IMG/VR virus record: IMGVR_UViG_3300048672_000363
Coordinates: 1-59,518 of that record
Reading direction: 5' to 3' (one strand)
DNA length: 59,518 bases
Source: a virus
The notes under the pieces were generated by a model that had not been told where the DNA came from, did not search any database, and was given only the letters and a program-made list of their open reading frames with translations. Shown here in pieces: positions 1-59,518 of the stretch (positions are counted from its first letter, which is position 1; each line of letters begins with the position of its first letter). The translations under genes were made by a program, and so were the position numbers.

Positions 1-1179
1 AGCGTCAGCTTTGCCAATCGCAAGGGCGGTATTGACCGCGTCCTGCATTGATGCGTAATTGCGCTTACCTTTGATTGCCGAGCCGAAGTCTGGGCGTGGC
101 GTTGGGATTTTGATAGGCTTGGTTTCAGATTCAAGTGCGGAGATGTGGTCATTCCACTCGACCGCTGCGGCATTGATCATGGCTTCTTTTTTGGCTAAGT
201 CGTTGGCTTTGCAGTCTTTTTCAATTTGCAATGCGTGTTTATTAGCCAATTCGGCGATGTAATCCAGCTTTTTCGCCATTTCGCCAAGCGACATCACCGC
301 GCCATCGTCAGATGGTTGGTTAATCATTTGCTCTTTTGCCGCAATCGCATCTTTGGCAAACTTGCGCATCGACTTCGCGTAAACGGACGCATCGGCAAAA
401 TCCGCATCAGTTACATAAAGCACCTTGCTTGCGCTCTCAATTTGCCGTTTGAGTGCCATTTCCGCTCGGTCAATGTCAGTTCGGATAATTCCGCCAGTCT
501 TTGCAGAAATGAAAATCGCAGGCAAGTCTTCGATTGGAGTGCCTTCTGGCTTTTCCGCAATCACTTCCAGCTCGCCCGACTTCATTTTGCGCTGGTATTC
601 CGCAACGTCTTTTTCAAACTGCGCCCAGCCGTTGATGATGCGATTAAACCAGTCAGCGTCAGGATAGACCTTCATCGAAGCCATATTTTCTTCCGTGCCG
701 TCAGAGACAGTGAAGATGCAGTATTCAGCACCGCTGATCAACAATCCTTGTTGCACTTGCGGGTAGTGATTTTCAGGCAAGATGCCATTTTGCACGGACT
801 GAAAAAGAGATTTGTTGAATTGTTTATGCTCCCATGCAAAGCGTTCATCGTCAGTAATTCCATCAAACGATGCGGACAATAACTTTTCAAATTCTGGTCT
901 AACATCTCGCCCAACGATAGGATAAAGTGCTTCACCGCCAAACTCGCGCACCTCAACAATAGGGCGCGCCATTGCTTCGGCTTCGTGCCCTTTCTCAAAA
1001 ATGCGCATGGTAGAATTACTGAATTCTGGCTGAATGCCTGTTGCATAACGCTTAATCAGATCATCGCGCTTGGTGTATGGGCTAATCCCAAGCATCGCCG
1101 CCGCTTCGGATGCGTTGTAGCAATTTGCGCGGTGCGCGTGCCATTCATTACTTCCCTGTGTCAAAAATACCTTTTTCAT
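1..1179 (-). CDS. YqaJ-type phage exonuclease, N-terminal part (runs off the left edge)
   Basis: Open reading frame of 393 codons from ATG at 1179, still open at position 1. It should be the 5'-3' exonuclease that makes 3' single strands for the annealing protein encoded just upstream. Visible PD-(D/E)XK residues are GHE at 64-66, D106 in SFDG, and E117/K119 in EHK. After the nuclease domain comes a lysine- and alanine-rich region of the kind seen in phage YqaJ proteins with long C-terminal extensions. The start overlaps the end of the RecT-like gene (ATGA). The fragment at 59047-59518 looks like its C-terminal part: it continues with a DDFTLTIKTRI-type segment typical of such extensions. Joined directly at the window ends the two are out of frame, so some bases are missing there. 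The family call is strong from the triad; the exact end is unknown. Confidence 0.85.
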   Translation of the reverse strand, partial: MKKVFLTQGSNEWHAHRANCYNASEAAAMLGISPYTKRDDLIKRYATGIQPEFSNSTMRIFEKGHEAEAMARPIVEVREFGGEALYPIVGRDVRPEFEKLLSASFDGITDDERFAWEHKQFNKSLFQSVQNGILPENHYPQVQQGLLISGAEYCIFTVSDGTEENMASMKVYPDADWFNRIINGWAQFEKDVAEYQRKMKSGELEVIAEKPEGTPIEDLPAIFISAKTGGIIRTDIDRAEMALKRQIESASKVLYVTDADFADASVYAKSMRKFAKDAIAAKEQMINQPSDDGAVMSLGEMAKKLDYIAELANKHALQIEKDCKANDLAKKEAMINAAAVEWNDHISALESETKPIKIPTPRPDFGSAIKGKRNYASMQDAVNTALAIGKADA

Positions 1180-1985
1180 TTCACTTCTCCCCATGCTTTT
1201 ATTTCGTCGATTTGCGCAGCCGTCAAAACGTAGCGCAGGCTTTGTTTTTGGATGATTTCTTGAGGTGTAGCTTCTTCGTTTTCAACCATAACCTTCCATT
1301 TAGGCGCGTTTCGGTCAAAAAACTCTTGCGGCATTTCTGTAAGTGAAAATTTCTTTTCTGGAGTCACATCGCGCACATTGTGTGTGGCTGCCTTTGCTTG
1401 TGTCACAACTCCATCCTCGTCAACGTCGTAAACGTCGTGCATTTCTTCTGCCGTGGACAAGCCCATGCCAAGCTCAGGAGCGTATGCGCGCTGCCAAAAT
1501 GCCGCTGCGCGATAAGTGAACATGATGTCAGGCATCGTTTTCCACTTTGACCCATTTTTATTATGCCAACCTTCAGCACGAACCATATCCCATGTCACCC
1601 AAACACCATCAAGACGTTCGCCTGTGTCACGCTCAATCGCCCATGCGCGGCAACCATACTCGCCACTCACTTTGTCACATTTTGCCCATTCGTAGCGTAA
1701 AGAAGAATAACGACCACATGAATTTACTGTTGCAATCAAAAACTTGCTTGACCACCCTGGGTTGCCATGCACGATGTACAAATTCTGCATGACCATGAGA
1801 GGTGATGCGCCGATGCGCTGCGCCATATCAATTGCAATCATGCAATCCGCAACCTTGCCTTGATACTGCTTAGGCACTAAATCTGTCGATGAAAATGCCT
1901 TGGCTACGCGCTGAATCAGCTCGAACGATTGTGCGTCAAAGAATCCAGCAACGGCATTGCTTGGCACTGTAATTTCTGTACTCAT
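1176..1985 (-). CDS. RecT-like single-strand annealing protein
   Basis: 269 residues from ATG at 1985, preceded by AAAGGAG at a good distance; a longer frame exists upstream but lacks this ribosome site. The protein resembles RecT-family recombinases: an N-terminal QSFELIQRVAKAF segment, GASPLMVMQNLYIVHGNPGW around residues 60-80 (the conserved 'availability and substrate' region of these proteins), then YRAAAFWQRAYAPELGMG near 170-185. It would coat single-stranded DNA and anneal complementary strands. Its gene overlaps the YqaJ exonuclease gene by four bases, the usual exonuclease/annealing pair. The family is recognised from sequence pattern only, so Erf- or Sak-type alternatives are not fully excluded, but the partnership with YqaJ supports the role. 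Confidence 0.75.
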   Translation of the reverse strand: MSTEITVPSNAVAGFFDAQSFELIQRVAKAFSSTDLVPKQYQGKVADCMIAIDMAQRIGASPLMVMQNLYIVHGNPGWSSKFLIATVNSCGRYSSLRYEWAKCDKVSGEYGCRAWAIERDTGERLDGVWVTWDMVRAEGWHNKNGSKWKTMPDIMFTYRAAAFWQRAYAPELGMGLSTAEEMHDVYDVDEDGVVTQAKAATHNVRDVTPEKKFSLTEMPQEFFDRNAPKWKVMVENEEATPQEIIQKQSLRYVLTAAQIDEIKAWGEVK

Positions 1986-2045
1986 TTTTTCTCCTTTATT
2001 GCGCCACAGCCTCAATATGGGCGGTGCAACGCCTTCCTATTTAAA

Positions 2046-3135: not shown

Positions 3136-3209
3136 GCGGGTATAGCCTAATGGTAAGGCATCTGTTTTCCAAACAGAGTATGGGGGTTCGATTCCGTTTA
3201 CCCGCTCCA
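3136..3209 (+). tRNA. tRNA-Gly (anticodon UCC), CCA encoded
   Basis: Acceptor arms GCGGGTA and TACCCGC pair perfectly; the anticodon loop TTTCCAA gives UCC; discriminator T at 3206 is followed by encoded CCA at 3207-3209. The T stem is imperfect: GGGGG faces CCGTT with one G-G opposition and two G-U pairs, which is unusual. Read codon: GGA. Confidence 0.85.
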
Positions 3210-6218: not shown

Positions 6219-6269
6219 TCGGGTAAGCGTCAGGATTAACATTTAAAATCATTATCCGTGGTTTTCAAT

Positions 6270-6342
6270 GTTAGTGTAGTTCAGTCGGTAGAACGGTGGT
6301 CGCCCATGCTACGCGTCGCAGGTTCAAATCCTGCCACTAACG
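6270..6342 (+). tRNA. tRNA, apparent anticodon CCC (Gly), unusual loop
   Basis: Acceptor GTTAGTG/CACTAAC, D stem GTTC/GAAC and T arm GCAGG-TTCAAAT-CCTGC are all perfect. The anticodon stem GTGGT/GCTAC has two wobble pairs and the 7-base loop CGCCCAT would give CCC with a G instead of the invariant U at position 33. No CCA is encoded (ACA follows). The cloverleaf is convincing; the identity is not. Confidence 0.7.
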
Positions 6343-6348
6343 ACAATT

Positions 6349-9517: not shown

Positions 9518-10051
9518 ATGGCACGCCCAGCTAAACTAACAGAAGAGATGAAGACAGAAGCCGCCCAGCGAATTGTTGATGGCGGCATTACCTATGAGGC
9601 TTTAGCAAAAGAGCTTGGCGTGTCCAAGCCGTGCCTGATAAAGAACGTTTCTGACCGAGTGAATAAATTAAAAGCCGCAGCGAATCAAATAGTTGCGACT
9701 GCAAACGCCCTTAGTTTATTACCAGTAAATGACCGAGGGTCAGCAATCAACCTAGCACAGACATTGCTTTACATGGCTAATAACATGGCAAGCACTTCCG
9801 GCAAAATGTCTAGAGCATCCGACCGCCTTGCATCGTTAGTCGAGAAACGAGTAGATACCCTAGAAGATATTGCACAAACAGGCGCGGGAATCACAACAGA
9901 GGATATTCAGCTAACGCTTGGGTCAATCCGTATGGTAAACGAAGCAAGCCAAACGCCGCTGAAGATGATGGACTTAGCCAAAGAGTCCATTAACAACCAA
10001 AAAGAATCCGTAAATACACCCACTAGAATCGTCGTGTGCGCGCCAGAATGA
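9518..10051 (+). CDS. terS: terminase small subunit
   Basis: 177 residues, starting MARPAKLTEEMKTEAAQRIVDGG, the usual opening of phage small terminases, followed by a helix-turn-helix (YEALAKELGVSKPCLIKNVSDRV, residues 28-50) that would recognise the packaging site. The central helices support oligomer formation. The start is unusual in having no visible Shine-Dalgarno sequence. It overlaps the large subunit by four bases (ATGA). Confidence 0.75.
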   Translation: MARPAKLTEEMKTEAAQRIVDGGITYEALAKELGVSKPCLIKNVSDRVNKLKAAANQIVATANALSLLPVNDRGSAINLAQTLLYMANNMASTSGKMSRASDRLASLVEKRVDTLEDIAQTGAGITTEDIQLTLGSIRMVNEASQTPLKMMDLAKESINNQKESVNTPTRIVVCAPE

Positions 10052-11337
10052 GCGACTTGATAGTCCCCATACCACCTAAGCTAATCCAAGTGTTCGCCCC
10101 TGAGCGCGGCGCGGTTAGGTATCGCTGGGCGTGTGGAGGTCGAAGCAGCGGAAAAAGTTTCACGTTTGCGATGATGGCAGCGATTTGGGGTGCGTGCGAA
10201 AAGCTGAAAATCTTGGTAGGTCGCGGACACTTCATCACCATCAAAGACTCATTCTTTGCTGAACTCAAGAACGCGATAGAATCAAACGAATGGCTTGCTA
10301 GTCAGTACGACGTTGGAGAGGATTATCTGCGCGGGTACAACGGCACACAGTTTCTGTTCCGTGGGCTGAATGTCAACCCTAAGTCGATCAAGTCAATCGC
10401 TCACGTCGATTTGTGCATCTTGGAAGAAGCTGAGGCAGTATCCGAGCAGGCATGGTTAAACTTAGAGCCAACGATCCGCGCCCACAAGAGCGAGATATGG
10501 TGCATCTGGAATCCTGAGCGCGAGGATTCTCCTGTTGATATTCGCATGGTGCAAAATAAGCCGGATAATTCAGTAGGATGCGCTATGAACTACACGGACA
10601 ACCCGTGGTTCACCGATGTTATGGAAGCGCAGCGTTTGCGAGATTTGCAGATACTTGATCGCGGAACGTACAACAACATTTGGCTGGGAGAGTACCTAAA
10701 GAACACAGAGGGCGATTATTACCGCAACGAATTCACTCGCATAGACTCCGAGGGCAGAATTTGCAACGTGCCGATAATGGATAATCCCGTGTTTACTTTT
10801 TGGGATATTGGCAATAGCGATGGTACTGCGATATGGTTCATCCAAAAATTCGGGCTTGAAACGCGTTGTATAGACTACTTTGAGGCGCACTATGAGAAGC
10901 TGGGACACTATGCCGCAATTCTCAAAGAGAAGGGCTATAATTACGCGAAGCATTTTTTGCCGCACGATGCAGATTACAAGAGATTATCCGACTCAAACAA
11001 ATCCACCCGTGAAATGCTTGAGGATTTAGGCTTAAAAGACATTGAGGTATTGCCTCGCATAACTTCACTATTTCAAGGTATCGAGATTACGCGTCGCCAC
11101 TTCCCCGCGCTTTGGTTCGATAAGAACCGCTGCGCATTAGGTATCAAGCGGCTGCGAAATTACCGCAGAAGGTGGAACAAAACAGATAACCGATTTGTGG
11201 ATGAGCCGGATAAAAATAATGGCAGTTCCGAAGCTGCTGACGCGATTCGGCAATGGGCGCAAGCCGAAGATTTAGGGCTTGTTGAAATTAGAGAGCGTTC
11301 GACATACAGACCCCCACCGCAAGATTGGAGAGCTTAA
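10048..11337 (+). CDS. terL: terminase large subunit
   Basis: 429 residues from ATG at 10048. The ATPase has Walker A GGRSSGKS at residues 30-37 and Walker B CILEEAE near 123-129. The nuclease domain begins at VFTFWDIGNSDGTA (aspartate near 253) and has further acidic residues in LPHDADYKR and SSEAADAIRQ. This is the PBSX/Terminase_3 type that translocates DNA into the prohead through the portal encoded next and cuts it, typical of headful or cos-independent packaging, which fits the permuted genome ends. Confidence 0.93.
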   Translation: MSDLIVPIPPKLIQVFAPERGAVRYRWACGGRSSGKSFTFAMMAAIWGACEKLKILVGRGHFITIKDSFFAELKNAIESNEWLASQYDVGEDYLRGYNGTQFLFRGLNVNPKSIKSIAHVDLCILEEAEAVSEQAWLNLEPTIRAHKSEIWCIWNPEREDSPVDIRMVQNKPDNSVGCAMNYTDNPWFTDVMEAQRLRDLQILDRGTYNNIWLGEYLKNTEGDYYRNEFTRIDSEGRICNVPIMDNPVFTFWDIGNSDGTAIWFIQKFGLETRCIDYFEAHYEKLGHYAAILKEKGYNYAKHFLPHDADYKRLSDSNKSTREMLEDLGLKDIEVLPRITSLFQGIEITRRHFPALWFDKNRCALGIKRLRNYRRRWNKTDNRFVDEPDKNNGSSEAADAIRQWAQAEDLGLVEIRERSTYRPPPQDWRA

Positions 11338-11423: not shown

Positions 11424-13751
11424 ATGGAAAACGAAAAAGAACAAGAAGAACATCCAGACACCGGAATGAGTGTTGATAAGTTCCGTGAAATCATCGAAAC
11501 GATCAAAGCACAGCCAAACTTTAGAGCCGCCGCCGACAAAGAGCATCGCTACTACGATGGCAAGCAACTTGATGATGATGTTGTTCGCCTTTACCAAAGC
11601 CTTGGGCGACAACCTTACATTGAAAACAACACAGCCCCAGCAATCAACCAAGCAATGTCTGTGGTGTTTACAGATGAGCGCGATTACCTAATCACCGCCG
11701 AAACGCCGGACGAAGAAGCCGAGCAACTCGCCCAAGCAATCAATCAAGAGCTACACCAAGTCGAATCAAGAACGTATGCCGACAATGCGTGCCGAGATGC
11801 CGCGCATGAAATGGGTGTGTGTGGGTTCGCGTTTGTAGAAGTGTCCCGCAACAAAGACCCGTTTGAGTACCCATACCGTGTAGAGGTTGCGCCGCGCAAT
11901 GAGATTTACTGGGATATGTTGTCAGTCGGCAAAGGCAAAGACCTTTCAAAAGCGCGTTGGATCGCCCGAAGACGCTGGTTAGATTGGCAAGATGTCGCCG
12001 CGCAGTTCCCAGATTTTCACGAGCAAATCAAAAATATGGCAGCACGCGGATCGGTGTTCGATGAATTCGAGCTACTGAGCGCGCAACTTTCAGGCGCGGG
12101 GCAAAATTCATTAAACGTACCCGTGCAAATGGAAGCTGTTGTTGGGCAGACTGGCGCGCCTTCAGCCGTAGCGTTTGCCTCACAGAATGCAATCCAGAAC
12201 GCATTTATTGGGCTGGAGCAGCAAGAATGGCGCGATGCCACTAAGTCTCGCGTGTTATTGCACGAATGCTGGTATCGAGTAAACGAAGACGTTAAGGTAA
12301 TTAAATACATTGACGGACGGGTTGAAGAGTTTGACGAAGACGATCCGCTCCACATGACCGAAGTCTCACTGTTCACCCAAGGCGATTCAAGCCTAATTTC
12401 AGAACTATCAATCACACGAACCAAGAAGATGCGGGTAAGCTACTGGCTTAATTCGCTGCGATTGCACGACGATTACAGCCCATTCCCACACAACGAATAC
12501 CCTTACGCGCCTTTCTTCGCAATTTCTGAGGATGCGACTGGCATTAAGTACGGACTTGCGCGCCCAATGATCCCAATGCAAGACGCGATTAACACCCTAA
12601 CCGCGAAGTTGATGCAAGGATTAGGCTCTGTTCGCGTCACGCGCACCGAAGGCGCGGTACGAATGACTGACGACCAAGTGCGTGAAAGTGCCGGATTAAC
12701 TAACGCGGATTTCGTGTTGGACGAACACTTCACCCGTGACGGACATATCTTTAAGCTGGAACGTGATTACGAGCTATCAAGTCAGCACTTGCAGGTGCTA
12801 AACGAATCCCGCGCAGCAATCAAAGCCGTTGCTGGTGTTTACAACAGCGAAGGGCAAAACAAGCTCCAGCAGTCAGGTTTAGCCATTGCCACACTTGCAG
12901 AACAAGGCGACAAGGCATTAGCAATCATCATGGATGCCGCTGGGCGCGGGCGTAGAGCGGTCGGCGAATTGTTGTTGTCGTTGATTATTGAGGATTTTAA
13001 GCGCAAGGAAAACGCGCAGATTGTCATTAAGGGCGACGCATTCAAGGAGAGCGCGACCATTACGATCAACGAATCGGGCATTGACGATGAAGGCGGGGAA
13101 TATCGACGCAACGACCTATCGAAAGCGCGATTGCTGTTGAGCTTGTCGGATACACCGACAAGCTCAAGCTTCAAGAATCAGCAACTAGCAGCCATGAGCG
13201 AGGCTTATAAATCATCCCCGCCAGAATATCAGCGTGCGATGTTCCCTGAAATGCTGCGCCTAATGAACATCCCGAACAAGGATGAGATTATGAAAGCCGC
13301 ACGCGATGCAAGCGCAGCCGCAACACCTGAGCAGGTGCAACAACAAATTGATTCCGCTGTATCTCAAGCATTACAAAAGGCACAGACAGAGGCGAAAATG
13401 CGCGAGCTTGACCTCAAAGCTATGCTGAACGATGCGCAAATTAAGCTTGTTAATGCGCAAGCCGTTGAGGTTGGCGTAAAAGCAAGCTATGCCGCGATGC
13501 AAGCTGGTCAAGCCGTAGCAACGATGCCACAAATTGCGCCGATTGCCGACGTTGTAATGCAGACAGCAGGCTATCAACCACCCAATCCGTTAGGTGTTGA
13601 CCCAAACTTCCCACAGCCTAGCGGTGTAGTTGCACCAGCACCGGAAGTGGCGGAGAATACCAGCCCAGTCATGCCGCCCGTAGCACCAACACCAGAATCA
13701 CCGTTGCAAGGCGCGGAGCATGGGGTTGAAACTATGAGGAGCGATGCGTAA
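11424..13751 (+). CDS. P22-type portal protein
   Basis: 775 residues from ATG behind GAAAGG. Matches the P22 portal family: N-terminal RYYDGKQLDDDVVRLYQSLGRQPYIENNTAPAINQAMSVV; YRVEVAPRNEIYWDM and ARWIARRRWLD; HNEYPYAPFFAISEDATGIKYGLARPM; then the long alpha-helical C-terminal 'barrel' (KAQTEAKMRELDLKAM). It forms the dodecameric ring that terminase docks on and that carries the short tail. Proline-rich tail from about residue 715. Length is normal for this family. Confidence 0.93.
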   Translation: MENEKEQEEHPDTGMSVDKFREIIETIKAQPNFRAAADKEHRYYDGKQLDDDVVRLYQSLGRQPYIENNTAPAINQAMSVVFTDERDYLITAETPDEEAEQLAQAINQELHQVESRTYADNACRDAAHEMGVCGFAFVEVSRNKDPFEYPYRVEVAPRNEIYWDMLSVGKGKDLSKARWIARRRWLDWQDVAAQFPDFHEQIKNMAARGSVFDEFELLSAQLSGAGQNSLNVPVQMEAVVGQTGAPSAVAFASQNAIQNAFIGLEQQEWRDATKSRVLLHECWYRVNEDVKVIKYIDGRVEEFDEDDPLHMTEVSLFTQGDSSLISELSITRTKKMRVSYWLNSLRLHDDYSPFPHNEYPYAPFFAISEDATGIKYGLARPMIPMQDAINTLTAKLMQGLGSVRVTRTEGAVRMTDDQVRESAGLTNADFVLDEHFTRDGHIFKLERDYELSSQHLQVLNESRAAIKAVAGVYNSEGQNKLQQSGLAIATLAEQGDKALAIIMDAAGRGRRAVGELLLSLIIEDFKRKENAQIVIKGDAFKESATITINESGIDDEGGEYRRNDLSKARLLLSLSDTPTSSSFKNQQLAAMSEAYKSSPPEYQRAMFPEMLRLMNIPNKDEIMKAARDASAAATPEQVQQQIDSAVSQALQKAQTEAKMRELDLKAMLNDAQIKLVNAQAVEVGVKASYAAMQAGQAVATMPQIAPIADVVMQTAGYQPPNPLGVDPNFPQPSGVVAPAPEVAENTSPVMPPVAPTPESPLQGAEHGVETMRSDA

Positions 13752-15052: not shown

Positions 15053-16384
15053 ATGGTAGCAACTTTCATACCGTGGGGCGACCCCAAGGCAATCGTCAAG
15101 CAGTCCGCAATGCTGACTGCGGCAACTCGCCAACCAACCACAGCACTTGCCCGCTTGCAAGGCGCAATGCCACAAGATGCGGATGTCCTACGCGACATGA
15201 GCAAGTATTCAACCAGCCCAAATTACCCTATCGTGCTGCACACTGACTTCACAAAAGTTGCTGGCGACACGGTGCGCGTTGACAACCTTGACCCGTTGGT
15301 TGGTTATCCGGTAATGGGCGGTCAATATATTTCCGGCACTGGCAATGCCATGACGTTTAGCACTGATTCGTTGCGAATTGAGGTATCCCGTAAGGCGATT
15401 AACCTTGGTACAGCGATGACGCAACAACGTACCATCCACCAGTTGCGAGCGATTGCGCTGGAAATGGCGAAGAGCTACTTCGTCGGCGTACAGGATCAGC
15501 GCGCATTTGTTCACATGGCTGGTGCGCGTGGCTTCCATCAAGGCGCGGAGTGGAATGTGCCTTTAGCCTCGCATCCTGAATTCGCCAACATCATGGTTAA
15601 CCCAGTCGCAGCACCTGTAAACGTGCGCCACTATGTCGCCAATGCAACAACCGGACTGGCTAAAGTTGCGCCCGTGGCAGGTGTAATGAACTTGGCTACG
15701 ACCGACGTGCTGAATACAAACGTGCTGGATGCGTTGCGTGGACTGATTGATTCTGACCACTTCACCATCCCCCCAGTTCGCTTTGACGGTGATCCGTTGG
15801 CGTATGACGACCCGCTGCGCGTGCTGCTGGTATCCCCGCAACAATACACCACGTTTATCCAGTCTGGCACTGGCACAAATGCGGTTCGTACCCTGATCGG
15901 CGCATCATTGGAACGCGCAAGCTCAATGAACAAACATCCTTTGTTTTTGGGCGGCTCGTTGCTGTGGAACGGCATCCTGATTGTGAAGATGCCTAAGGCT
16001 ATTCGCTTCTACGGTGCAGACCCTATCCAGTATTGCGCAGACCCTGCGACAGTTGTTGAATCTACCGCGACAGTTCCGGCGGCTTTCACTGCGGCTAATT
16101 TCGCAGTTGACCGCGCTATCCTGTTGGGCGGCAATGCTTTGGCTCATGCCGTCGGCAAACTGAAGCTGCAATCGACAATCGCGGAAGAGGATATTCTCGG
16201 CAAGTTATCCATCATGGTGACGGAAGAAGTGACCGACCACATGATGCGCAATGAAATCGCCGTCACCTCTTTGGACGGGTACAAGAAAATGCGTTTCTTG
16301 CAAAACATCGGCAACAATCAAAGCCGCTGGATTGAGAACTGCATCGTCATTGACACCGCCGTTCCGGTTGTAGCTGGCGTTTAA
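15053..16384 (+). CDS. major capsid protein, N4 gp56-like (DUF4043)
   Basis: 443 residues from ATG behind AAGGAG. Matches the N4 gp56-like capsid family: VLHTDFTKVAGDTVRVDNLDPL, TAMTQQRTIHQLRAIALEMAK, then VPPVRFDGDPLAYDD-type P-domain region, LLVSPQQYTTFI, LGGSLLWNGILIVKM and the C-terminal DILGKLSIMVTEEVTDHM. An HK97-fold shell protein. An ACGTC-GTGAT-GACGT hairpin lies at 15015-15029 in the leader. Adenine/cytosine-rich codon use is like the neighbours. Confidence 0.9.
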   Translation: MVATFIPWGDPKAIVKQSAMLTAATRQPTTALARLQGAMPQDADVLRDMSKYSTSPNYPIVLHTDFTKVAGDTVRVDNLDPLVGYPVMGGQYISGTGNAMTFSTDSLRIEVSRKAINLGTAMTQQRTIHQLRAIALEMAKSYFVGVQDQRAFVHMAGARGFHQGAEWNVPLASHPEFANIMVNPVAAPVNVRHYVANATTGLAKVAPVAGVMNLATTDVLNTNVLDALRGLIDSDHFTIPPVRFDGDPLAYDDPLRVLLVSPQQYTTFIQSGTGTNAVRTLIGASLERASSMNKHPLFLGGSLLWNGILIVKMPKAIRFYGADPIQYCADPATVVESTATVPAAFTAANFAVDRAILLGGNALAHAVGKLKLQSTIAEEDILGKLSIMVTEEVTDHMMRNEIAVTSLDGYKKMRFLQNIGNNQSRWIENCIVIDTAVPVVAGV

Positions 16385-31800: not shown

Positions 31801-34800
31801 ATTTATGGCGAACAGCTAGACGAAATAACCGACGCTATTGAAGCCGCTAAACGCGCCAATGGTGATCGCGGGATTGTTGGCGCAATGGAAAAGATTAAAG
31901 CCAATTTGCAAACAAAAATGACCAAGCTGATTGATAAAATTGGCGAGAGCGACAAGGTTGTGACATTCAACGAGTTAGGTATTGACGGATTGTATGTAGA
32001 TGAAATGCACGAATTCAAAAACCTATTTTTTAGAACATCCATGAACCGCGTGGCAGGTTTAGGAAATCCAGAAGGATCGGGCAAGGCATTTGACCTGTTC
32101 GCTAAAATCACATGGCTGAATAAAACCTATAATGGCAAAGCTCCGTTAGTAGCTGCCACAGGAACGCCAGTGTCAAACTCATTGGCTGAAATGTACACCA
32201 TGCAGCGGTATATGCAGTACGACCACATGAAAGCACAAGGTACGCACTTGTTTGATGATTGGGCGCGTATGTTTGGCGAGGTTGAAACGCTTTACGAGGT
32301 GTCAACTTCTGGTGTTGGATATAGGCAGTCGCAACGGTTCTCTAAGTTCAAGAACCTACCTACGCTTATGGCTGACTACAACACATTCACCGATACAGTC
32401 ACGCTTGACGACCTGAAACAAAACTCAAAAGACGAAGGCAAGATTTTCCCTGTGCCAAAGATCGAAGGTGGAAAGCCGACAAACATTGTCGCAGAACGCT
32501 CACCAGACCAAGAGAGATACTTCGGCATTCCTTTTGTGGCACGGCTTGAGGATGACAACAGCATTATCTATAAAATAAACTACGAAAATGCAAAGGTAGA
32601 GCAAAGCAAAGACGGAAAGTGGATTTTAAGCGACGGACGCACATCGTCTTCCTACGAAACAAAAGAAGAGGCTGATGTTGCGCTGGTTGAAGGTGCGCTA
32701 ACGCCTGTTGTTGAGATCGACCCGAATACATTGCTTGGTAAATTTGCAAACCTAGCCGAGCTTACAAGGCAATCAAAAGGAAAGATTAACGCCCTTTCGC
32801 TTACCAGCCTAGCAAGCAAGGCGGGTTTGGATATGCGAATTATCGACCCTGCAATGCCTGACTTTGAGGGCAGCAAGATAAATAAAGCAATAGGTCAGCT
32901 CATGCGCCTATACAAGAGGTTTGATAAGGTAAAAGGCACTCAGATTGTATTTTGTGATTCATCCGTCCCACTATCAGCGCGTAAAGCAATGGGAGCTAAA
33001 GAGCGCAGGTTGTTTGTGCGTGATGACAACGGAGATATTATCCATAAAAAAGGCACTGTAAACACAATAGAAGGCTACGAGGGCTTTCCGTTCTATCTGG
33101 TAAAGACTGGTAAAGGCGAGAGCGCGAAGATTACCGCTTATGAGCCTGTGTCTGGTTCGGTATTGTTTAGTGGCGTAGATAGAAAAAGCGTCATGGAAAC
33201 TATTGATAACTCACTGACCAATGAAAGAATGCGCGAAAGATGGCTGGACATTAGAGGTCGCCGCCCAGCAATCACCGAAGAGGAATTGGCAGAATACCGC
33301 GAAGCCAAAGAGCTTGATGTAGCAGAAGACGGAAGCAACGAAATTAGCTTGGATGACGTAGAAGCGGTATCTGGCTCTAGCCAATTCTCAGTGTATGACG
33401 ATATGCGCGACAAGCTGATTGCGCAAGGTGTACCAGAAAACGAAATCGCTTTCATTCACGATTACGATACTCCAGCCAAAAAGGACGCGCTATTTAAAAG
33501 CATGAAGCGCGGCGGTGTGCGGTTCTTATTTGGATCAACTCCAAAACTAGGCGCGGGAACTAACGTGCAAGACCTTATCGTCGGTATTCATCATATAGAT
33601 GCGCCGTGGAGACCGTCCGACTTGGAGCAGCGCGAAGGGCGCGGCATACGTCAAGGGAATAAATTAGCCTATGATGAAAACGGCAAACCTATAGCTGGCT
33701 TTGAGTTGTTTATTGGGCGTTATGCAACATCACAAACTTATGACACTCGCCGTTGGCAGTTATTGCAACACAAGGCGACTGGAATTGAGCAACTGCGCAA
33801 GTATGATGGTCAGTTGGAGATTGACGACGTAGCTGGTGAAGCATCTAACAGTGCTGATATGAAAGCCGCAACGTCAGGTAATCCGTTGATACTTGAGGAA
33901 ACGCGCCTTAATAATGAGGTTAAACGCTTAGTATCATTGCAAAAAGCACACGCTGATAGTATGCAATCAATGCACCGCCAGTTGAATAACAACAAGGCAA
34001 TGGTTGACAAGATACTACCAAGGAATGCACAAGAGCTTACTGCAAACATTGCCGCGTCTGAGAAGCACCCAAAGAAAACAGGGAAGGATATAGCGCAGTT
34101 TTCAAGCGGAAGCAGCAAAGCTAAAACACGCGAAGCGGCAGAAAAGATCATCAAAGAGTTTGCATATAAACTACGCTTAGGTTCAATAATTTCATCAAAT
34201 GTTAATTATCGCGGGGTTGATTTCATTGTTGAAAGCCATAGAACAAGTGAGATAACTATTTCTGCTGGCGAAAATACGTTTGCAGTGTATGGCTTGAAAG
34301 ATGACATATCACCTAGTGGATTTATTACCCGCCTAGATAACTACATCGAAAGTATGGGAGCGCGTCTTTCTGCCGTTAATCGTGAAATTGAAAAGGCACA
34401 AGAAGAGATTAAAAGTGTGTCTAGCAGAATCAATGCGCCGTTTGAAGAGCTTGGGACACTGGAAAGAGCTAGATCAGCACACGCATGGACACGCCGCCGA
34501 CTGTTGAAATCAACTCAGCTAGATTCAATTCCTGTTAATGAGCGTCCAGCATTTGAGAGAGAGCAAGAATCGCGCAAGGCTGAATTAAGGAAGCGTGGTT
34601 TTGGTGCGGCTATTGATGAATTAGAAAAACAGTCTTCGCACGAAGGCGTTAAGTTTAGCAAAGGCGATACATCATCAAACAACCACACAATCCAATCCGC
34701 CACGTCATCCATTGAACAATCGGTAAGCGGCATTGAAGGCGGCGCGGTTAATGCCATGCTGCAATCAGGCAAGCTAAAGGTAATCAGCCGTGCAAAGTCT

Positions 34801-37800
34801 CGCTTGATGATCGGCGCGAACCGTTCAATCAGCGACGCAATGATTAAGCAGGGCGTTAAAACTGGGATGTGGAACAGGGTTCAAGGGTTCTACAATCCAA
34901 CTGACGGCATAACCTATGTGGTATCTGAAAACATCCCAAAGAATTACACCGCCCAACAGTGGCGCGGCTTGCTTCGCCATGAGATAGCTGTTCACGCTTA
35001 CTACTTAGGCAAAGATAACGCTGAATTCGCGGGTGTGTTGCGTCAAGTCAAGTCATTGCGCAAGATTGATAGCCGCGTAAATGCCGCGTATGTGCGCGCA
35101 GAAATGGCTAAGACATCCGCCGATATGATGGATGAAGAGGCTCTAGCCTACTTGGTTCAACACAATAAAGACCTGCCACTGGTTAAGCGCGTGTTCGCAT
35201 GGTTCAAAAACGCATTGCGCGAACTTGGCTTGAAACTTCCAGTAATGCAGCGCGCCCCGTTTATGAAGTGGGCGAATAGCTTGACAGTGGATGACTTGCA
35301 ATTTATGGCGGAACAGGCGATGAGCGGCGGGCAGTTTAATCCAGATGGCGAGGTTGCATTCTCACAAGCCACTGATGAAGAGGTGCGGGAAACCGAAGTC
35401 CCAAAAGAAACACGTCCGCAAATCGCGCAACGCGTCGTACAGGACAAGATGAACCGCTTCCGCACCATCGCCGAATGGGCGAAGACGCAAGGAAAAGAAA
35501 TATCCGAAGCGGCTAATGTGTGGCTACATGAAGGCAACATGGCGGCGAAGATTGCTAACCGTCAGGAAGACTTCAATACCAAGGTACAAGAGCCGTTAAT
35601 CGCACGGATGCAAAAGGCTGGATATACCCAAGCACAGGTTGAAGAGTTCATGCTGGCACAGCATACCGCCGAGGCGAACAAACGCGCCCGTTTAATCCAC
35701 CGCGACCCAAACAAAACAGCGTTTGGAGTGACCGATGAAGAAGCCGCCGAAGTGTTAGCGGAATATGCCAAGACTGCGAACTTCAAAGAGCTTGAAAGTA
35801 TCGCGGCGGACACGCGCAAGATTACCAAGGAAACACAACGCATTCAGTTGAAATTCGGCTTGAAGTCGCAGGAAGAAATTGACGCACAGAATGCTACCTA
35901 TGAATTCTATGTGCCAGTGAAGGGCGACGGAAAGGACAACGCAAGCGGCACAGGTAAAGGATTGTCGGTCAATGCCAAGGATAAACGCCGCATGGGTCAT
36001 GGCTTGCGCGATGAGTATGTGCTAGAGAACATTTTTCGCGACCACATGAGAGCGATCTCACTTTCTGAAAAAAACGTAATCAGCGGCATCGTGGCGCAGT
36101 TCCTGAATGAAATCGGTGATGCGCGTATCGGCACAGTCGGTCAGCCCGTCAAAAAGCAAGTCTTTGTTGATGGCGCGACGCATTACATGGTGACATACCA
36201 CGGAAGCGACGTAAACGGCTTTGCTAACCTCAAGGATGCGCGGCAATACATTGAGCTGGAATCTGCGCGTTACGGTCGTGGCAAGGCTGATTTTTCAATC
36301 CAGACCACTAAGGATGCTGGGCGCGTGCGGCTGGTTGCCTCGCCCATGCTTGCAGAAAACGAGATCATCTACTACCAAGACGGTAAGGAGGTGCGCATCC
36401 AGTTGAACGACGCTACCCTAGCCCGTGCCGCGACTAACCTTGGCGTGGAACATTTAGGCTTGTTGCTGTCAGGGGCGAAGCGCGTAAACCGCTTTTTGTC
36501 CATCGCTTACACTGGCTGGAATCCTGAATTCGCACTAAAGAACCTGACACGCGACTTTATTGCTGGGGCGATTAACCTTGCGGGTGATTACGGCGTAGGT
36601 ATGACCGCCAAGATTTACGGCAACTACGGCAAGGCATTCAAGGAGCTGATTAAGCACATAGGCGATCCGTCAAAATCCGAACTGCTGACCAACTACCGCG
36701 CAGATGGCGGGAACACGGGCGGCGCATGGTTGCCAGACATCGAACGAATCAGCACCGAGTTTCAAGCCAAGTACAACGAGTTCGCGGGGTTTATGGCTAC
36801 ACATCAAAACGTGTACGAACGTGCCATTGATGAAGGCAAAAGCAAGACCGTTGCTGAATTGAAAGCATACGCGGCGGCATCGGCGGCACAGGCTAAACGA
36901 CTTCCTGTTATCGGTCACTTCCTGAAATTGATGGAAAAGGTAAACGCGGTGACGGAAAATTCACTACGCCTAGCCACATACATGACGTTGCGCGAGAATG
37001 GCTTTAGCCGTGCCGAATCTGCCAAAGCAGCCAAGCAATCCACGGTGAACTTTAACCGCAAGGGTGAGATAGGCGCACAAGCGGGTGCGTTGTATCTGTT
37101 CTTTAACCCTTCCGTTCAAGGCACAGCACGGGTATTTGAAACGCTTGCAACCTCGAAACACAAAGGACAGGCACAGGCTTTAGTCGGCATGATGGCTTTG
37201 TCCGCATTCGCACTTGCCGAGGCTATGCGCGGTGGCGACGATGACGACGAGGACAAGTGGAAAAAAATACCTGACGGCATCAAGGATAGAAATCTGGTAT
37301 TTAAGTTTGGCGATACCGAGTTTATGATCCCTATTCCTTATGGCTACGGCGTAGCGCACACCCTTGGAAATGTGTTGTCTGACGTAATGCACGGGGAGAA
37401 CAAGTGGAAAGCAAGCATCCGCATGACGGACGCTATTCTTGGCAACTTCTCGCCAGTTGGCAATCCATTTGAAGGCGGTGAAGCTACGCCAACCAACCTA
37501 ATGCCGACGCTTTCAAAAATGGCAACTGCGCCAGAAATGAACAAGAACAACTTCGGCAATCCTATTCAGCCCGACAAGTTCAACGAGTTCGCGCCCGATA
37601 GTTGGAATATGTACCGAAAGACAAAAGGCACGTTGTACGCTGACGTGGCGGCTGGAATGAACGCCATGACGGGCGGGTCGAGCTACGAAAAAGGCAAGAT
37701 TGATATTTCCCCCGAAGTGCTGCGCTTTTGGGTGGAATCATTGACGGGCGGCACAGGGCGGTTCTTTGCTGACACGTTAAGCCTTGGCAGTGTGGCATTA

Positions 37801-38193
37801 CAAGGCGGGGTGGACACGGTAGAATTAAAAGAAGTGCCTATCGCCCGTGGTTTTGTGAGAACTGAAAGCATCACAGATTCCCGTGCAGCGTTCTACAAAT
37901 CGGCAACCGAAGCCAAAGAAGCAGCGGCAGAATTCAAAGGCGCGATTAAAGCCAAAGATTTTGAAGCAGCCAAGGCTATGCGAGAAGAGCGCGGCGACCT
38001 AATCGCCCTTGCAAGCTACGCAACAAAAGTGCAAACTATGGCGCGAGCAAAACGTGATATGATTGACGCAATAAAAGCCGACGAATCATTGACATTATCG
38101 CAACAACGTGAGCGCATGAAGTTCGTTGAGGCGCAAGAGCAAGCGGCATATGATACTTTCTTAAAGGTCTTCAATGACAGAGCCTCAAAATAA
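25870..38193 (+). CDS. giant polyvalent protein: methylase, helicase, zincin-like, LPD38-like domains
   Basis: 4107 residues in one frame, a fifth of the window. Visible domains: Ala/Gln-rich linker 430-900 with TPTS repeats at 499-517; N6-adenine methyltransferase with ILEPSLGSGNFFG (1185-1197) and GNPPFG (1252-1257); SF2/SNF2 helicase with GAGKT (1882-1886), DEMH (2044-2047), ATGTPVSN, and QREGRGIRQ (2587-2595); HEIAVH (3037-3042) followed by an EEALAYL acidic helix, a zincin-like arrangement; and an LPD38-like domain from 3538 (NPEFALKNLTRDF), with a hydrophobic helix near 3770-3788. Such proteins (DarB and related) are packed in the head, enter the cell with DNA and protect it from restriction. 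The ribosome site is poor (AGATAAAACAGCC before ATG). Whether all activities remain is not known. Confidence 0.85.
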   Translation: MPTPDIDSIINDFDNLDKPQQSPAPVVNGKGLKPKSSGLYEFGKQLVGGAVNAVPEMVSAAGMGLTRSALGEDNEAFRAFESGRIAAKERAKEWAPDLEGRGEVSKAFINAAGAIAPSVAPLVALANPMAAAGGSGLLFGAQAYEDAREKALAAGLSKDEAHSLGMKEAAIQGGGEAVANRLTAGLFGAGKNAAAAGMRGLIGKATEQGVAKQFLKAAAEAAIGEPLTEIAQDTGTAAVERSYGLKTDDYGKIAYDSGTTALAMTAILAPFGLRSHYKNSAQAKSVDTALSDPTAATREQREQVVNDLYSKGKEQGAKDADAWYVGAMQDVAENKPIRRDVVAPVVTPEAEAAAKEQAALGLPTLKDNPAYVFSDGSIGTQADIDNEVAKAAPAEREAKRAEIMAGGRYVDDALNVVPETIDYTKPSKEKAELGLAPKGATITPQQVDIPVIPYVQTPTLDAVRKENPFAGATPQTPLSLAASAAHVSGAIEQAATAATTPTSTPTSTPTSTPTSTPLVGRDAQAAAAYKAQQAADKAQGKQFAADLQAEQRRAKEKATVEAMRAKAAQAKADRAAAAQTQATKAQQTGQLIAQELAKRKAAKEQPQPQGEFIDREEPTTTNPQDLIKPKKGAVQQPQLSASENEVIAKVQTRADQLGAQVKRVGSTKLFGYFVGKKNKGYLNSTESAVYAKQLKANDEANNQPIATPAPTATPAVVDEEYSQQTFVNKTRMTGRMGEPDTHFIIVKKGTGEAVSGEIENTPRNINALNAKKLNREKYEAISLEERQQRMAKEIESGSTAYYTKPPQEAAQAAEPVATVAKQAEKEAEALPIRDVRIGDELLLDGETYKVTGTIKDGVKAERDSGEYQTTVRLVHGDDVIRAKIAAENSAPVEQPEAKAAKESGNANLLEAAKEMGNIEFIGFGDKQKKAEATPASAIESIKESTELSKIEKLQTIAAVNKGELSPSDVQGIIGEQNASDTQAESVPSGTNQADRIGERDGNKSGEHLDAGLGEARQGTDRSGTVRDSIQEPSGTGQASGLAESESPNSTGKTGDAGNDGRVSDAELNHEITEEDSVGSGTKDKKFNDNIEAIKILKELDDENRPATPAERKSLARYVGFGGYASAFDSQNKAFAKHYQTLKGLLNDDEFKSARASVNNAYYTSKTIVDAMYKAVSGFGFNGGRILEPSLGSGNFFGMMPSTMRNASNLRGVELDLLTSKIAKALYPKANVAVATGFQEYQVPSGHFDMAIGNPPFGNESVPTREKTEYSGFSIHNYFISRMIDKVRDGGIVPVIVSHSFMDSLDPKARQYIASKANLIGAVRLPSSAFKENAGTEVITDILFFQKTATPEKNPSWVNSSDIYLTEAKTGTEQRVTENTYFAKNPQNILGEKGLANSQFGFKYNVKSNGDLNKQLASFIESLPKNIYTPIERTTSELDSVDNTIPDGVKQGSFYVAEDGTVKQRGEDIAGEKTATLWTPKNEMAADRMKGMIRLREKLRTLMSLEQDANASEKQIELHRQLLNTSYDNFKKKYGFVNSQLNRILFMDDTEAALLQSIEFDYDKGVSKAVAASRGTEERAPSATKADIMQRRVLFPYAQRTKTTNAKDALLASLDEKGRIDIDYMAELYNKPKDEIVKELGDLVYFDPATDDYVSSDEYLSGDVKSALELAKKSALENPAYNRNVKALEKVIPSDKIPSEIHAPIGAGWIPSKVYSDFVKSLIGGNPKVDYNHVSATGGWVNSGILGNADSAKMNTDFGTEKISAFDIFNLLMDGKSPDLKKTIGSGQDKRTVSDVEGTEAARDKANKIKDAWSTWLWQDGDRSTQLSDIFNEKYNRIINRKYDGQHLVLHGASPVIKMYKHQKNAVWRIVQDGKTLLDHVVGAGKTFVMVASVMENKRLGKARKQLIVVPNHLTMQIRSDFARLYPSANVLAATPEDFSKDNRERMFAKIALGDYDAVIIGHSSLAKIGLSVEIQEQIYGEQLDEITDAIEAAKRANGDRGIVGAMEKIKANLQTKMTKLIDKIGESDKVVTFNELGIDGLYVDEMHEFKNLFFRTSMNRVAGLGNPEGSGKAFDLFAKITWLNKTYNGKAPLVAATGTPVSNSLAEMYTMQRYMQYDHMKAQGTHLFDDWARMFGEVETLYEVSTSGVGYRQSQRFSKFKNLPTLMADYNTFTDTVTLDDLKQNSKDEGKIFPVPKIEGGKPTNIVAERSPDQERYFGIPFVARLEDDNSIIYKINYENAKVEQSKDGKWILSDGRTSSSYETKEEADVALVEGALTPVVEIDPNTLLGKFANLAELTRQSKGKINALSLTSLASKAGLDMRIIDPAMPDFEGSKINKAIGQLMRLYKRFDKVKGTQIVFCDSSVPLSARKAMGAKERRLFVRDDNGDIIHKKGTVNTIEGYEGFPFYLVKTGKGESAKITAYEPVSGSVLFSGVDRKSVMETIDNSLTNERMRERWLDIRGRRPAITEEELAEYREAKELDVAEDGSNEISLDDVEAVSGSSQFSVYDDMRDKLIAQGVPENEIAFIHDYDTPAKKDALFKSMKRGGVRFLFGSTPKLGAGTNVQDLIVGIHHIDAPWRPSDLEQREGRGIRQGNKLAYDENGKPIAGFELFIGRYATSQTYDTRRWQLLQHKATGIEQLRKYDGQLEIDDVAGEASNSADMKAATSGNPLILEETRLNNEVKRLVSLQKAHADSMQSMHRQLNNNKAMVDKILPRNAQELTANIAASEKHPKKTGKDIAQFSSGSSKAKTREAAEKIIKEFAYKLRLGSIISSNVNYRGVDFIVESHRTSEITISAGENTFAVYGLKDDISPSGFITRLDNYIESMGARLSAVNREIEKAQEEIKSVSSRINAPFEELGTLERARSAHAWTRRRLLKSTQLDSIPVNERPAFEREQESRKAELRKRGFGAAIDELEKQSSHEGVKFSKGDTSSNNHTIQSATSSIEQSVSGIEGGAVNAMLQSGKLKVISRAKSRLMIGANRSISDAMIKQGVKTGMWNRVQGFYNPTDGITYVVSENIPKNYTAQQWRGLLRHEIAVHAYYLGKDNAEFAGVLRQVKSLRKIDSRVNAAYVRAEMAKTSADMMDEEALAYLVQHNKDLPLVKRVFAWFKNALRELGLKLPVMQRAPFMKWANSLTVDDLQFMAEQAMSGGQFNPDGEVAFSQATDEEVRETEVPKETRPQIAQRVVQDKMNRFRTIAEWAKTQGKEISEAANVWLHEGNMAAKIANRQEDFNTKVQEPLIARMQKAGYTQAQVEEFMLAQHTAEANKRARLIHRDPNKTAFGVTDEEAAEVLAEYAKTANFKELESIAADTRKITKETQRIQLKFGLKSQEEIDAQNATYEFYVPVKGDGKDNASGTGKGLSVNAKDKRRMGHGLRDEYVLENIFRDHMRAISLSEKNVISGIVAQFLNEIGDARIGTVGQPVKKQVFVDGATHYMVTYHGSDVNGFANLKDARQYIELESARYGRGKADFSIQTTKDAGRVRLVASPMLAENEIIYYQDGKEVRIQLNDATLARAATNLGVEHLGLLLSGAKRVNRFLSIAYTGWNPEFALKNLTRDFIAGAINLAGDYGVGMTAKIYGNYGKAFKELIKHIGDPSKSELLTNYRADGGNTGGAWLPDIERISTEFQAKYNEFAGFMATHQNVYERAIDEGKSKTVAELKAYAAASAAQAKRLPVIGHFLKLMEKVNAVTENSLRLATYMTLRENGFSRAESAKAAKQSTVNFNRKGEIGAQAGALYLFFNPSVQGTARVFETLATSKHKGQAQALVGMMALSAFALAEAMRGGDDDDEDKWKKIPDGIKDRNLVFKFGDTEFMIPIPYGYGVAHTLGNVLSDVMHGENKWKASIRMTDAILGNFSPVGNPFEGGEATPTNLMPTLSKMATAPEMNKNNFGNPIQPDKFNEFAPDSWNMYRKTKGTLYADVAAGMNAMTGGSSYEKGKIDISPEVLRFWVESLTGGTGRFFADTLSLGSVALQGGVDTVELKEVPIARGFVRTESITDSRAAFYKSATEAKEAAAEFKGAIKAKDFEAAKAMREERGDLIALASYATKVQTMARAKRDMIDAIKADESLTLSQQRERMKFVEAQEQAAYDTFLKVFNDRASK
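27368..27420 (+). repeat. 12-bp tandem repeat in the giant gene
   Basis: About four and a half copies of CCGACAAGTACC, encoding Thr-Pro-Thr-Ser units at residues 499-517. Unit length keeps frame, so the linker may vary in length. Confidence 0.85.
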
Positions 38194-56791: not shown

Positions 56792-57604
56792 TTACCCGAA
56801 GAGTTTGTTAATCATCTGCGCGACAGTTCCAGCGAATACGCGGAAGTCCGTCGTAAGGTCGCCTTCGGGCTTAACGCCAATTTTTAAGCTCTTGATTAAG
56901 CCTGTAGATGTCAAGGTAAATGCCGTTGGCGCGCCGTCGTCATAAATCATTCCAAGTTCCAGCACGTCACTATGCAGCAAAACCTCATCGCTCAGTCCAA
57001 ATAGGTTGAACACCTTGTACGCAGCCCGCGAAGAATCCTCTTCGGGCGACTTGATAACCACTGAATCGCCGCGATCAAAGCCGTCCGGCAATGAAGAATC
57101 GTCGAGCATATAGCTCTTTAACTTCGCTGGCAGGTCGCCACGATTCGGCAATTCCAGACCAAGCCCGTCAACCGCACCTGAAAGGAGTTCAACCACTAAA
57201 TCGGCAACGGCAGAACTTGACGTGTCAACCATCACGCGCTTGTTTGCAATGTCCATCCATACCATAACCGTCTTGATAGAGGGTAGGGTCTTAGCCAAGA
57301 ATTCCAGCTCAACTTGCTCACACATATCGCGGATCATTCGCTTGCTTGGTTCTTGCCCTTGCAAACGCTTCTGCGCCTCGCGCTTGACGGCTTTCGCATT
57401 AACCCGCCGGGTTTGGATTTCAACAGCGGCTAGTAGGTGCTTCGCGTCGATGGACAAAAGATAATTGCCCTCATCATCAGCCGGAACGAACCCGGCTGAT
57501 TGCTTTTCTGTTTTTGGACATTCAAGGCATTTTCGCTTTTCCAGTTTTGATGCGGTCACTCCGTTCGCCCCGTTTGGTGCAAAAAGAATCGTTAGGTTTT
57601 TCAT
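56792..57604 (-). CDS. rdgC: RdgC-like DNA-binding protein
   Basis: 270 residues. Starts MKNLTILFAPN; the middle has KREAQKRLQGQEPSKRMIRDMCEQVELEFL with TLPSIKTVMVWMDIANKRVMVDTSSSAVAD, corresponding to the 'lysine/arginine helix - IWID ... VD.ss...ae' block of RdgC; the end FRVFAGTVAQMINKLFG also fits. RdgC forms a ring on double-stranded DNA and limits RecA loading. Directly behind ssb in the recombination operon. Confidence 0.75.
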   Translation of the reverse strand: MKNLTILFAPNGANGVTASKLEKRKCLECPKTEKQSAGFVPADDEGNYLLSIDAKHLLAAVEIQTRRVNAKAVKREAQKRLQGQEPSKRMIRDMCEQVELEFLAKTLPSIKTVMVWMDIANKRVMVDTSSSAVADLVVELLSGAVDGLGLELPNRGDLPAKLKSYMLDDSSLPDGFDRGDSVVIKSPEEDSSRAAYKVFNLFGLSDEVLLHSDVLELGMIYDDGAPTAFTLTSTGLIKSLKIGVKPEGDLTTDFRVFAGTVAQMINKLFG

Positions 57605-57668: not shown

Positions 57669-58130
57669 CTAATTAAAAGGAATGTCGTCGTCGAAGTCGT
57701 CAAAATTATTTTTAGGCGCAGGTGCAGGTGCAGGGCGGCTTGCTGGTGGTCGTGCCGATCCGCCGCTTGCATTTGCATAATTCTTTCCGCTGTCCGCGCC
57801 TTCACCTTGCTTGTCTTTAGGCTTTGACACGAATTCAAAGTGAATTACGTCGCCCTTTAACGTCACTCCTCCTTTGCCATCTTTGCTCCACTCTTCGTTG
57901 TGCAAATCTTTCAGCGTCACAGAAATTCGTGCGCCCTTTTGGAGATATGGGTGCAACTTTTCAGCTTGCTTTCCCCAAAACGTGGCGACGTACCACTGTG
58001 TTGGCTTATTGCCTTCGTTGTCCTTCATGCCGTAAGGAACTGCGAGGTTTACAGCCATTACTTGCATCCCGCTTTGCGTGAAGCGAAGCTCAGGGTCTTT
58101 GCCGATTGTTCCGATAATTGTGGTTGACAT
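57669..58130 (-). CDS. ssb: single-strand DNA-binding protein
   Basis: 153 residues. OB-fold start STTIIGTIGKDPELRFTQSG with VNLAVPYG and WYVATFWGKQAEKL; glycine/proline-rich linker from about residue 110; acidic tip DDFDDDIPFN, the protein-docking tail, though ending in N rather than F. AGGAG precedes the start. Works with the RecT-like protein. Confidence 0.93.
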   Translation of the reverse strand: MSTTIIGTIGKDPELRFTQSGMQVMAVNLAVPYGMKDNEGNKPTQWYVATFWGKQAEKLHPYLQKGARISVTLKDLHNEEWSKDGKGGVTLKGDVIHFEFVSKPKDKQGEGADSGKNYANASGGSARPPASRPAPAPAPKNNFDDFDDDIPFN

Positions 58131-58160
58131 TCTAATTACTCCTAGTTTTGTTTCAATTTT

Positions 58161-58200
58161 AAATACGGCACACGTTCAATGTGCCGTGCTGTCATCATTG
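58161..58200. repeat. 40-bp direct repeat, left copy
   Basis: 36 of 40 bases identical to 58888-58927. Read on the minus strand it encodes MMTARHIERVP immediately behind the FGE-type gene's stop codon and ends in a short frame before ssb. Confidence 0.9.
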
Positions 58201-58872
58201 CTACGGGATCGTTCTGGCAAGACGGAAGCCGCCGTTTCCGTCCCGTAACGAGGGTACACCGTAGAGGCGATACGCCGCACGCATATTACATGTCCTGCTG
58301 CTCCACGAACCGCCGCGCAGCACACGCGTATTGGAGCTTTCACCCTCCCAAGCACTGCCGTCACTTGGTGCGTCTTTGTAGTCGCTGTGATAGCCGTCTT
58401 GCACCCATTCCCATACGTTGCCACTCATGTCGTGCAGTCCCCAAGCATTGGCTTGTTTTTGTCCGACAGGGTGAGTTCGATCGCCACTGTTGCCGTCATA
58501 CCACGCCACTTGGTCGATGTCGTTGCTGCCAGCATACAAGTGATTTTCGCCGCCGCGACAGGCATATTCCCATTCCGCTTCGCTGGGTAAACGATAGGTT
58601 TTGCCGCTCAGGGCATTGAGCTTTTGGATAAATTGCTGCGCCATGTCCCAACTTACCCGCTCAACGGGACAGGTGTCACCACCATCTTGGAAGTGACTGG
58701 GGTTGTCACCCATCACCGCCCGCCATTGCGCTTGCGTCACAGGATATTTGCCGAGTTCAAAAGCGGCAATTTGCACGGGATGGGCGTTTTCACCGAAATA
58801 ACCCGCACCATCACGCTCTTTCACCCATCCCATTACGAAACTACCACTCTTAACTTTTACCATTTCAATCAT
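58201..58872 (-). CDS. FGE-sulfatase / C-type-lectin-fold protein
   Basis: 223 residues from ATG at 58872 (GGGAGAG upstream), overlapping the previous gene by four bases. Family marks: VKVKSGSFVMG, YPVTQAQWRAVMG, CPVERVSWDMAQQF, YRLPSEAEWEYACRGG, GLHDMSGNVWEW, TRVLRGGSW and GFRLART. The fold is shared by formylglycine-generating enzymes, EgtB-type oxidases and the variable proteins of diversity-generating retroelements. The 3' end (SSRTCNMRAAYRLYGVPSLR) has many codons that differ from AAC/AAT only at A positions, as in retroelement targets, but no reverse transcriptase or template repeat is present. Location between exonuclease and ssb genes is atypical, and a 40-bp repeat flanks it. A binding role is more likely than catalysis. 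Confidence 0.85.
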   Translation of the reverse strand: MIEMVKVKSGSFVMGWVKERDGAGYFGENAHPVQIAAFELGKYPVTQAQWRAVMGDNPSHFQDGGDTCPVERVSWDMAQQFIQKLNALSGKTYRLPSEAEWEYACRGGENHLYAGSNDIDQVAWYDGNSGDRTHPVGQKQANAWGLHDMSGNVWEWVQDGYHSDYKDAPSDGSAWEGESSNTRVLRGGSWSSRTCNMRAAYRLYGVPSLRDGNGGFRLARTIP

Positions 58873-59060
58873 TTTGCTCTCCCTGTTAAATCCGGCATAC
58901 GCTCAATGTGCCGTGCTGTCATCATCGACTTGCGCCATGCTGTGCGCTTGCGGGCTTGTAAAAATCGCTCTAGTGCCGTTTGTGGTGCTTCTGGTGGGTA
59001 TCCGTCAGGAATAAACTCGCACCCACCATTAGGCACAAATGGGAATTTATGCGCTCGCAT
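58869..59060 (-). CDS. small basic protein, 63 residues
   Basis: Starts MRAHKFPFVPNGGCEFIPDG, then a basic stretch ARKRTAWRKSMMTARHIER and a short end. Overlaps the exonuclease end by 14 bases. Its C-terminal codons form the right copy of the 40-bp repeat, so the protein may be a form truncated or rebuilt when the FGE-type gene was inserted. Confidence 0.6.
   Translation of the reverse strand: MRAHKFPFVPNGGCEFIPDGYPPEAPQTALERFLQARKRTAWRKSMMTARHIERMPDLTGRAK
58888..58927. repeat. 40-bp direct repeat, right copy
   Basis: Lies inside the 63-residue gene, encoding MMTARHIERMP. With the copy at 58161 it brackets the FGE-type gene (distance 727 bp). Confidence 0.9.
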
Positions 59061-59518
59061 TTAAAGACTCGCTGAATTTACAGAACTCAACTAGTACCGC
59101 ACGAATCTTTCCTTCTTGATCTCCAAAGTTGCGCGATTTCAAGAATTCAGCGATAACCTTTTGATGCCCAATGACTGCATTTTCTGGCGATGTTTTTTGT
59201 GCGGGTGCTTCCGCCTCCGCGCCAGCTTCTTCCTTTTGCTTTTTCGCAAGTGAATCAGCTTCGGCTTTTGCTTTGGCTTGCTCCTCGGCACGAATGCGCG
59301 CCTCTTCTTGGGCTAATTTCAATTTAGCATCAGCTTCGGCTTTTGCTTTGGCTTCTGCTTCAATCCGTACCAAGTCATCTGCACGTTGCTTTTCAATCGC
59401 CGCATCCGCATCCGCAATTCGCGTTTTGATGGTCAATGTGAAATCATCCATTGTCTTTGCGATAATTTGCGCCAAGTCAGGGAAAAGATTGCTGCGACCA
59501 GCCGCGTTTTCTTTGCAC
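59047..59518 (-). CDS. C-terminal part of the YqaJ-type exonuclease (runs off the right edge)
   Basis: Frame open from the window edge: residues CKENAAGRSNLFPDLAQII, then MDDFTLTIKTRIADADAAIEK, a long Ala/Glu/Lys helix (AEAKAKAEADAKLKLAQEE), and VIAEFLKSRNFGDQEGKIRAVLVEF. A TTG at 59475 could be misread as a start. The pattern (acidic PDL..II..DDFTL.IK.RI followed by a KAEAEA coil) is the usual tail of phage YqaJ proteins and the gene at position 1 lacks exactly this part. Frame at the join is off, so a few tens of bases are probably absent. Confidence 0.75.
   Translation of the reverse strand, partial: CKENAAGRSNLFPDLAQIIAKTMDDFTLTIKTRIADADAAIEKQRADDLVRIEAEAKAKAEADAKLKLAQEEARIRAEEQAKAKAEADSLAKKQKEEAGAEAEAPAQKTSPENAVIGHQKVIAEFLKSRNFGDQEGKIRAVLVEFCKFSESLNASA

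Follow-up and report, generated by a model that had tools for sequence, protein, structure and literature searches.

The window, which is the whole virus record of 59,518 bp, is very probably an effectively complete (~99.9%) circular or circularly permuted phage genome that was opened by the assembler in an exonuclease gene with the loss of ~38 nt. This agrees with the original prediction of a near-complete circular or permuted genome and is supported by the complementary ends of the record, the gene order of its relatives across the join, and the genome size, which would be about 59,556 bp if the gap is taken as 38 nt. The same prediction regarded the two ends as parts of one gene. Comparison of the translated frames with protein profiles confirms that they represent the predicted N- and C-terminal parts of a single RecE-like/YqaJ exonuclease, on the basis of complementary and adjacent profile regions, a 13-residue spacing, and agreement in reading frame:

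1..1194, minus strand: N-terminal part of the exonuclease, RecE-like/YqaJ, 398 residues (PF09588, phrog_7655), cut by the left contig end.
59047..59518, minus strand: C-terminal part of the exonuclease, 156 residues and, before them, the final base of a codon (phrog_7655 and a profile made from homologues), cut by the right contig end.

As had been described, the left-end frame (1-1194, minus strand, 398 aa) has no stop before base 1, its last residues being ...NTALAIGKADA, while a second minus-strand frame (59517-59047, 156 aa) comes in open at the right end with CKENAAGRSNLFPDLAQ as its first residues and stops after ...NASA. These are the longest open runs among the 12 terminal frames, with 427 and 156 codons, the next being 118. 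Direct end-to-end joining leaves them out of frame, with a stop 13 codons on, and a gap of 3n+2 bases produces a single open frame through to the natural stop, in line with the offset by one noticed before. Thirteen codons of the exonuclease frame fall beyond the contig, which is compatible with one frame across a 3n+2 gap. Since the last base of the 13th absent codon is present at 59518, the missing sequence amounts to 12 codons and 2 bases, that is, 38 nt, a figure that sharpens the earlier estimate of about a dozen residues to exactly 13 in the light of 162/162 homologues. Moreover, the two sides of the join have negative GC skew and negative AT skew alike, as is expected of one leftward operon.

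The left piece matches the Pfam YqaJ family PF09588 (2.3e-8, 34.9 bits, cut-off 22) as an N-terminal YqaJ-type nuclease domain, and covers positions 1-372 of phrog_7655, a RecE-like exonuclease profile of 551 positions, at 1.9e-96. It is 31-39% identical to aligned relatives of the phrog_7655 type, and the nuclease-type residues S109-x-D111-G112 and E122-x-K124 are invariant between it and nine homologues. The right piece, scanned alone, matches profile positions 388-499 (2e-9), corresponding to the C-terminal extension. When the whole record is searched with phrog_7655, just two places match, with the same adjacent coordinates, the right piece now at 4.6e-12. Both pieces therefore match adjacent regions of the PHROG 7655 exonuclease (YqaJ plus a long C-terminal extension), and the gene differs from its relatives in being interrupted, by the contig ends only.

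A set of 169 homologous loci was gathered from phage records, viral contigs, and bacterial genomes, and a profile made from 163 homologues only was searched against all 706 open reading frames of at least 40 codons in the window. The left piece covers positions 1-376 of this profile, the match ending on the last residue before base 1, and the right piece covers positions 390-537 from the first residue after base 59518, with 54.4 bits; none of the other frames passed the inclusion threshold. The best score among 2,000 shuffled versions of the right piece was 8.7 bits. A coiled-coil artefact behind this homology was rejected, as the first 42 residues, which precede a charged coiled-coil-like tail, score 36.7 bits alone with zero bias (best of 5,000 shuffles, 7.0). 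The right piece alone gave no match in tblastn searches against phages, probably owing to divergent and partly low-complexity sequence; the homology was resolved by profile methods. In addition, the spacing between profile positions 376 and 390 is exactly 13 residues in 162/162 usable homologues, where the sequence follows a pattern like xxIAxxVRxRLxW, and all 163 homologues with a visible stop continue for 125 residues or more after the left-piece match ends. Full relatives measure 543-654 aa, and about 567 aa (398+13+156) would be expected here.

Across the join, the leftward operon reads RecT-like gene, exonuclease, 63-aa protein, FGE-domain protein, SSB, and RdgC, the unbroken order that had been anticipated, and the named neighbours hold up, the RecT-like gene with a weak Pfam match and clear DNA similarity:

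1176..2015, minus strand: RecT-like single-strand annealing protein, encoded immediately upstream of the exonuclease (DNA identity; weak PF03837).
58869..59060, minus strand: 63-aa small protein whose start overlaps the exonuclease stop (open reading frame only).
58201..58872, minus strand: FGE-sulfatase-domain protein with a formylglycine-generating-enzyme-like fold (PF03781, 5e-45).
57669..58130, minus strand: single-stranded DNA-binding protein, SSB (PF00436, 1.9e-16).
56792..57604, minus strand: RdgC-like protein (PF04381, 7.4e-24).

The RecT-like gene is 67-72% identical in DNA to annotated phage RecT genes, with its protein below the PF03837 cut-off (0.002), and no family was found for the 63-aa protein. 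In 59 of the homologous loci, the gene before the exonuclease is RecT-like and shares its strand in every case, while an SSB like the one in the window follows the exonuclease in 19 and RdgC in 9.

The mechanism proposed for such ends starts from phage DNA that would be circular or circularly permuted, so that its assembly map would be a circle. F116 has terminally redundant, circularly permuted DNA, and in an F116-like phage the mapped reads reveal no fixed ends (PMC5217972); the headful packaging with circular permutation for which F116 is known may likewise operate here. The assembler would have cut this circle inside the exonuclease gene, as assemblies of circular templates open at an arbitrary point (PMC8116208), and the ~38 nt between the ends would not have been recovered. 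The gap could result from thin coverage, with the assembly dropping out, or from strains that differ over a short stretch, given that de Bruijn assemblers halt at positions with several paths and contigs with orphan ends tend to low coverage (PMC10914622). The record resembles the circular contigs recognized by CheckV (terminal repeat) and COBRA (self-circular) in having a circular map that assembly cut open at no particular place, and differs from them in that no terminal repeat is left and a ~38-nt gap stands in place of the usual k-mer overlap.

An unbroken circle from a k-mer assembler usually leaves a terminal overlap. The ends of the window do not overlap: the best end/start overlap is at random level, the first and last 500 bases have no 13-mer in common on either strand, and no direct terminal repeat of at least 20 bp is present. 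A 24-mer from the right end found no match in viral contigs, a set that may lack near copies, and no independent record spans the join; single-protein searches of viral contigs with the exonuclease and the head protein likewise found no close relative spanning it. The absent terminal overlap, the lack of an independent record over the join, and an integrase that was not found (PF00589 without a match in the record) point against a complete circle.

Among the alternatives, one retains both the single gene and the circle, and places extra sequence in the unassembled interval (an intron, a homing element, or a hypervariable insert), which would bring the genome above 59,556 bp. The assembly did stop exactly at this interval, and three unrelated phage contigs break off no more than about 80 nt downstream of the corresponding codon. 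However, a single insertion would not take coding sequence off the ends and would leave none missing, yet 13 conserved codons are absent, and 162/162 homologues read through without insertion, so this explanation is very unlikely. The three contigs (L012, L086, and L088) stop 70-77 nt beyond the codon that corresponds to the left-end break, against about 0.44 ends expected from contig-end density; the comparison was chosen post hoc, and the cluster is within the range of chance. They are unrelated at the DNA level and end at different bases; given also the weak excess, a shared contig breakpoint in other phages was rejected. The cluster possibly reflects chance or a stretch that breaks assemblies. 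A genuine hot spot in these 38 nt, where strains vary or insertions occur and where several unrelated phages would have their assemblies broken around one and the same codon, is unlikely.

It is highly improbable that the contig is an incomplete fragment whose ends only look complementary, either as a chimera of two phages carrying the gene or through two exonuclease copies in a longer genome. RecE-like genes of this family are common, with 576 relatives among the scanned viral contigs, but the two pieces show no profile overlap and exactly the usual spacing, the record holds one N-part and one C-part only, neither circular gene order nor strand nor base skew is interrupted at the join, and the record size agrees with that of relatives. 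Finally, it is scarcely credible that the contig ends are the physical termini of a linear virion DNA: the record indeed has no end repeat, but a conserved gene would then be destroyed with no terminal repeat to restore it, and an F116-like relative lacks fixed ends in read mapping (PMC5217972).

Despite its lack of end repeats, the record can be handled as a practically complete genome, which makes its gene counts and genome size usable and absences such as that of an integrase informative. Terminal-repeat criteria need a repeat of at least 20 bp (PMC8116208), and a record with a gap instead of a repeat is missed by them; a gene split over both contig ends could serve as a simple completeness test for such linear viral contigs. 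The split gene itself is assembly bookkeeping, and the biology is ordinary, the phage being a divergent relative of a known group.

This relationship is seen when gene order is anchored on the terminase large subunit, with the following genes and tRNAs outside the operon:

10036..11337, plus strand: terminase large subunit, TerL, anchor of the circular gene order (phrog_3717, 1.7e-48; phrog_2, 1.5e-38).
11424..13751, plus strand: portal protein of F116/8P type (phrog_156, 3.4e-127).
15053..16384, plus strand: major head protein (phrog_334, 1.7e-76).
25870..38193, plus strand: 4107-aa large polyvalent protein with Eco57I-type methylase, ResIII/helicase, and LPD38 (PF18857, 9.6e-31; PF07669; PF04851).
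3136-3209, 6269-6344, and 6349-6438: tRNA genes Gly-TCC, Gly-CCC, and Ser-TGA.

Portal, terminase, head, head-closure, and large polyvalent proteins are held in common with F116/H66/LKA5 (Hollowayvirus), CF63a, and 8P-type Pseudomonas podoviruses. The portal, terminase, and head genes are homologous and in the same order as in F116/8P-like phages, with the portal protein 39% identical over 96-97% to those of F116, H66, and 8P, and 8P encodes a 5145-aa counterpart of the 4107-aa protein at the same place. With each of 8P and CF63a, the record has nine genes in common, arranged in the same circular order, and the exonuclease lies at 49.5 kb on the TerL-anchored map here, versus 47.3 kb in 8P and 53.1 kb in CF63a. 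In the same comparison, F116 gave no match to the exonuclease type of the record, and strict order was broken by one methyltransferase match only, inside the large late-gene region of F116.

The leftward RdgC-SSB-exonuclease-annealing operon also has the same circular order in F116/CF63a/8P-type podoviruses, with the late module following RdgC. The genes for exonuclease, SSB, and RdgC lie together in a leftward operon next to the replication region, an arrangement that appears in the record only once its two ends are joined. In CF63a, a gene in the position of the annealing protein is followed by exonuclease, a polymerase III-like gene, SSB, and RdgC; F116 has exonuclease, further genes, SSB, and a recombination-associated exonuclease in the RdgC position, in the same orientation; 8P has ERF, exonuclease, further genes, and SSB. 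The genome size of 59.5 kb agrees with this group, whose genomes run to about 60-65 kb and whose records compared here measure 61-65 kb. Nevertheless, proteins are mostly <40% identical to those of this group, with little DNA similarity, the annealing protein is RecT instead of the ERF type annotated in 8P, and the record is set apart by the FGE gene in its operon and by the three tRNA genes. F116 and 8P carry an integrase and none was found here, so that either the phage differs or something is missing; for this reason, it is placed as related to the group and not as a Hollowayvirus member. The phage is best read as a new, divergent podovirus-like relative of the F116/8P/CF63a group.

The FGE gene (58201-58872) is flanked almost exactly by a 53-nt direct repeat, 83% identical, at 58146-58198 and 58873-58925, in which the 3' end of the small gene preceding the FGE gene is duplicated after it. 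This copy behind the gene suggests that the FGE gene came in as a cassette. A diversity-generating retroelement acting on the FGE protein was rejected, since no reverse transcriptase was found in the record and there is accordingly no sign of such an element. An 84-bp stretch of the gene (58394-58477) shows about 80-82% DNA identity to Microcystis phages (MaMV-type, LMM01), and is the only phage DNA match within the right-hand 7.5 kb. Elsewhere in the window, an array of 15/18-nt repeats occupies 7170-7491 within the open reading frame 6953-7669, which is pentapeptide- or hexapeptide-repeat-like and has a weak Hexapep match.
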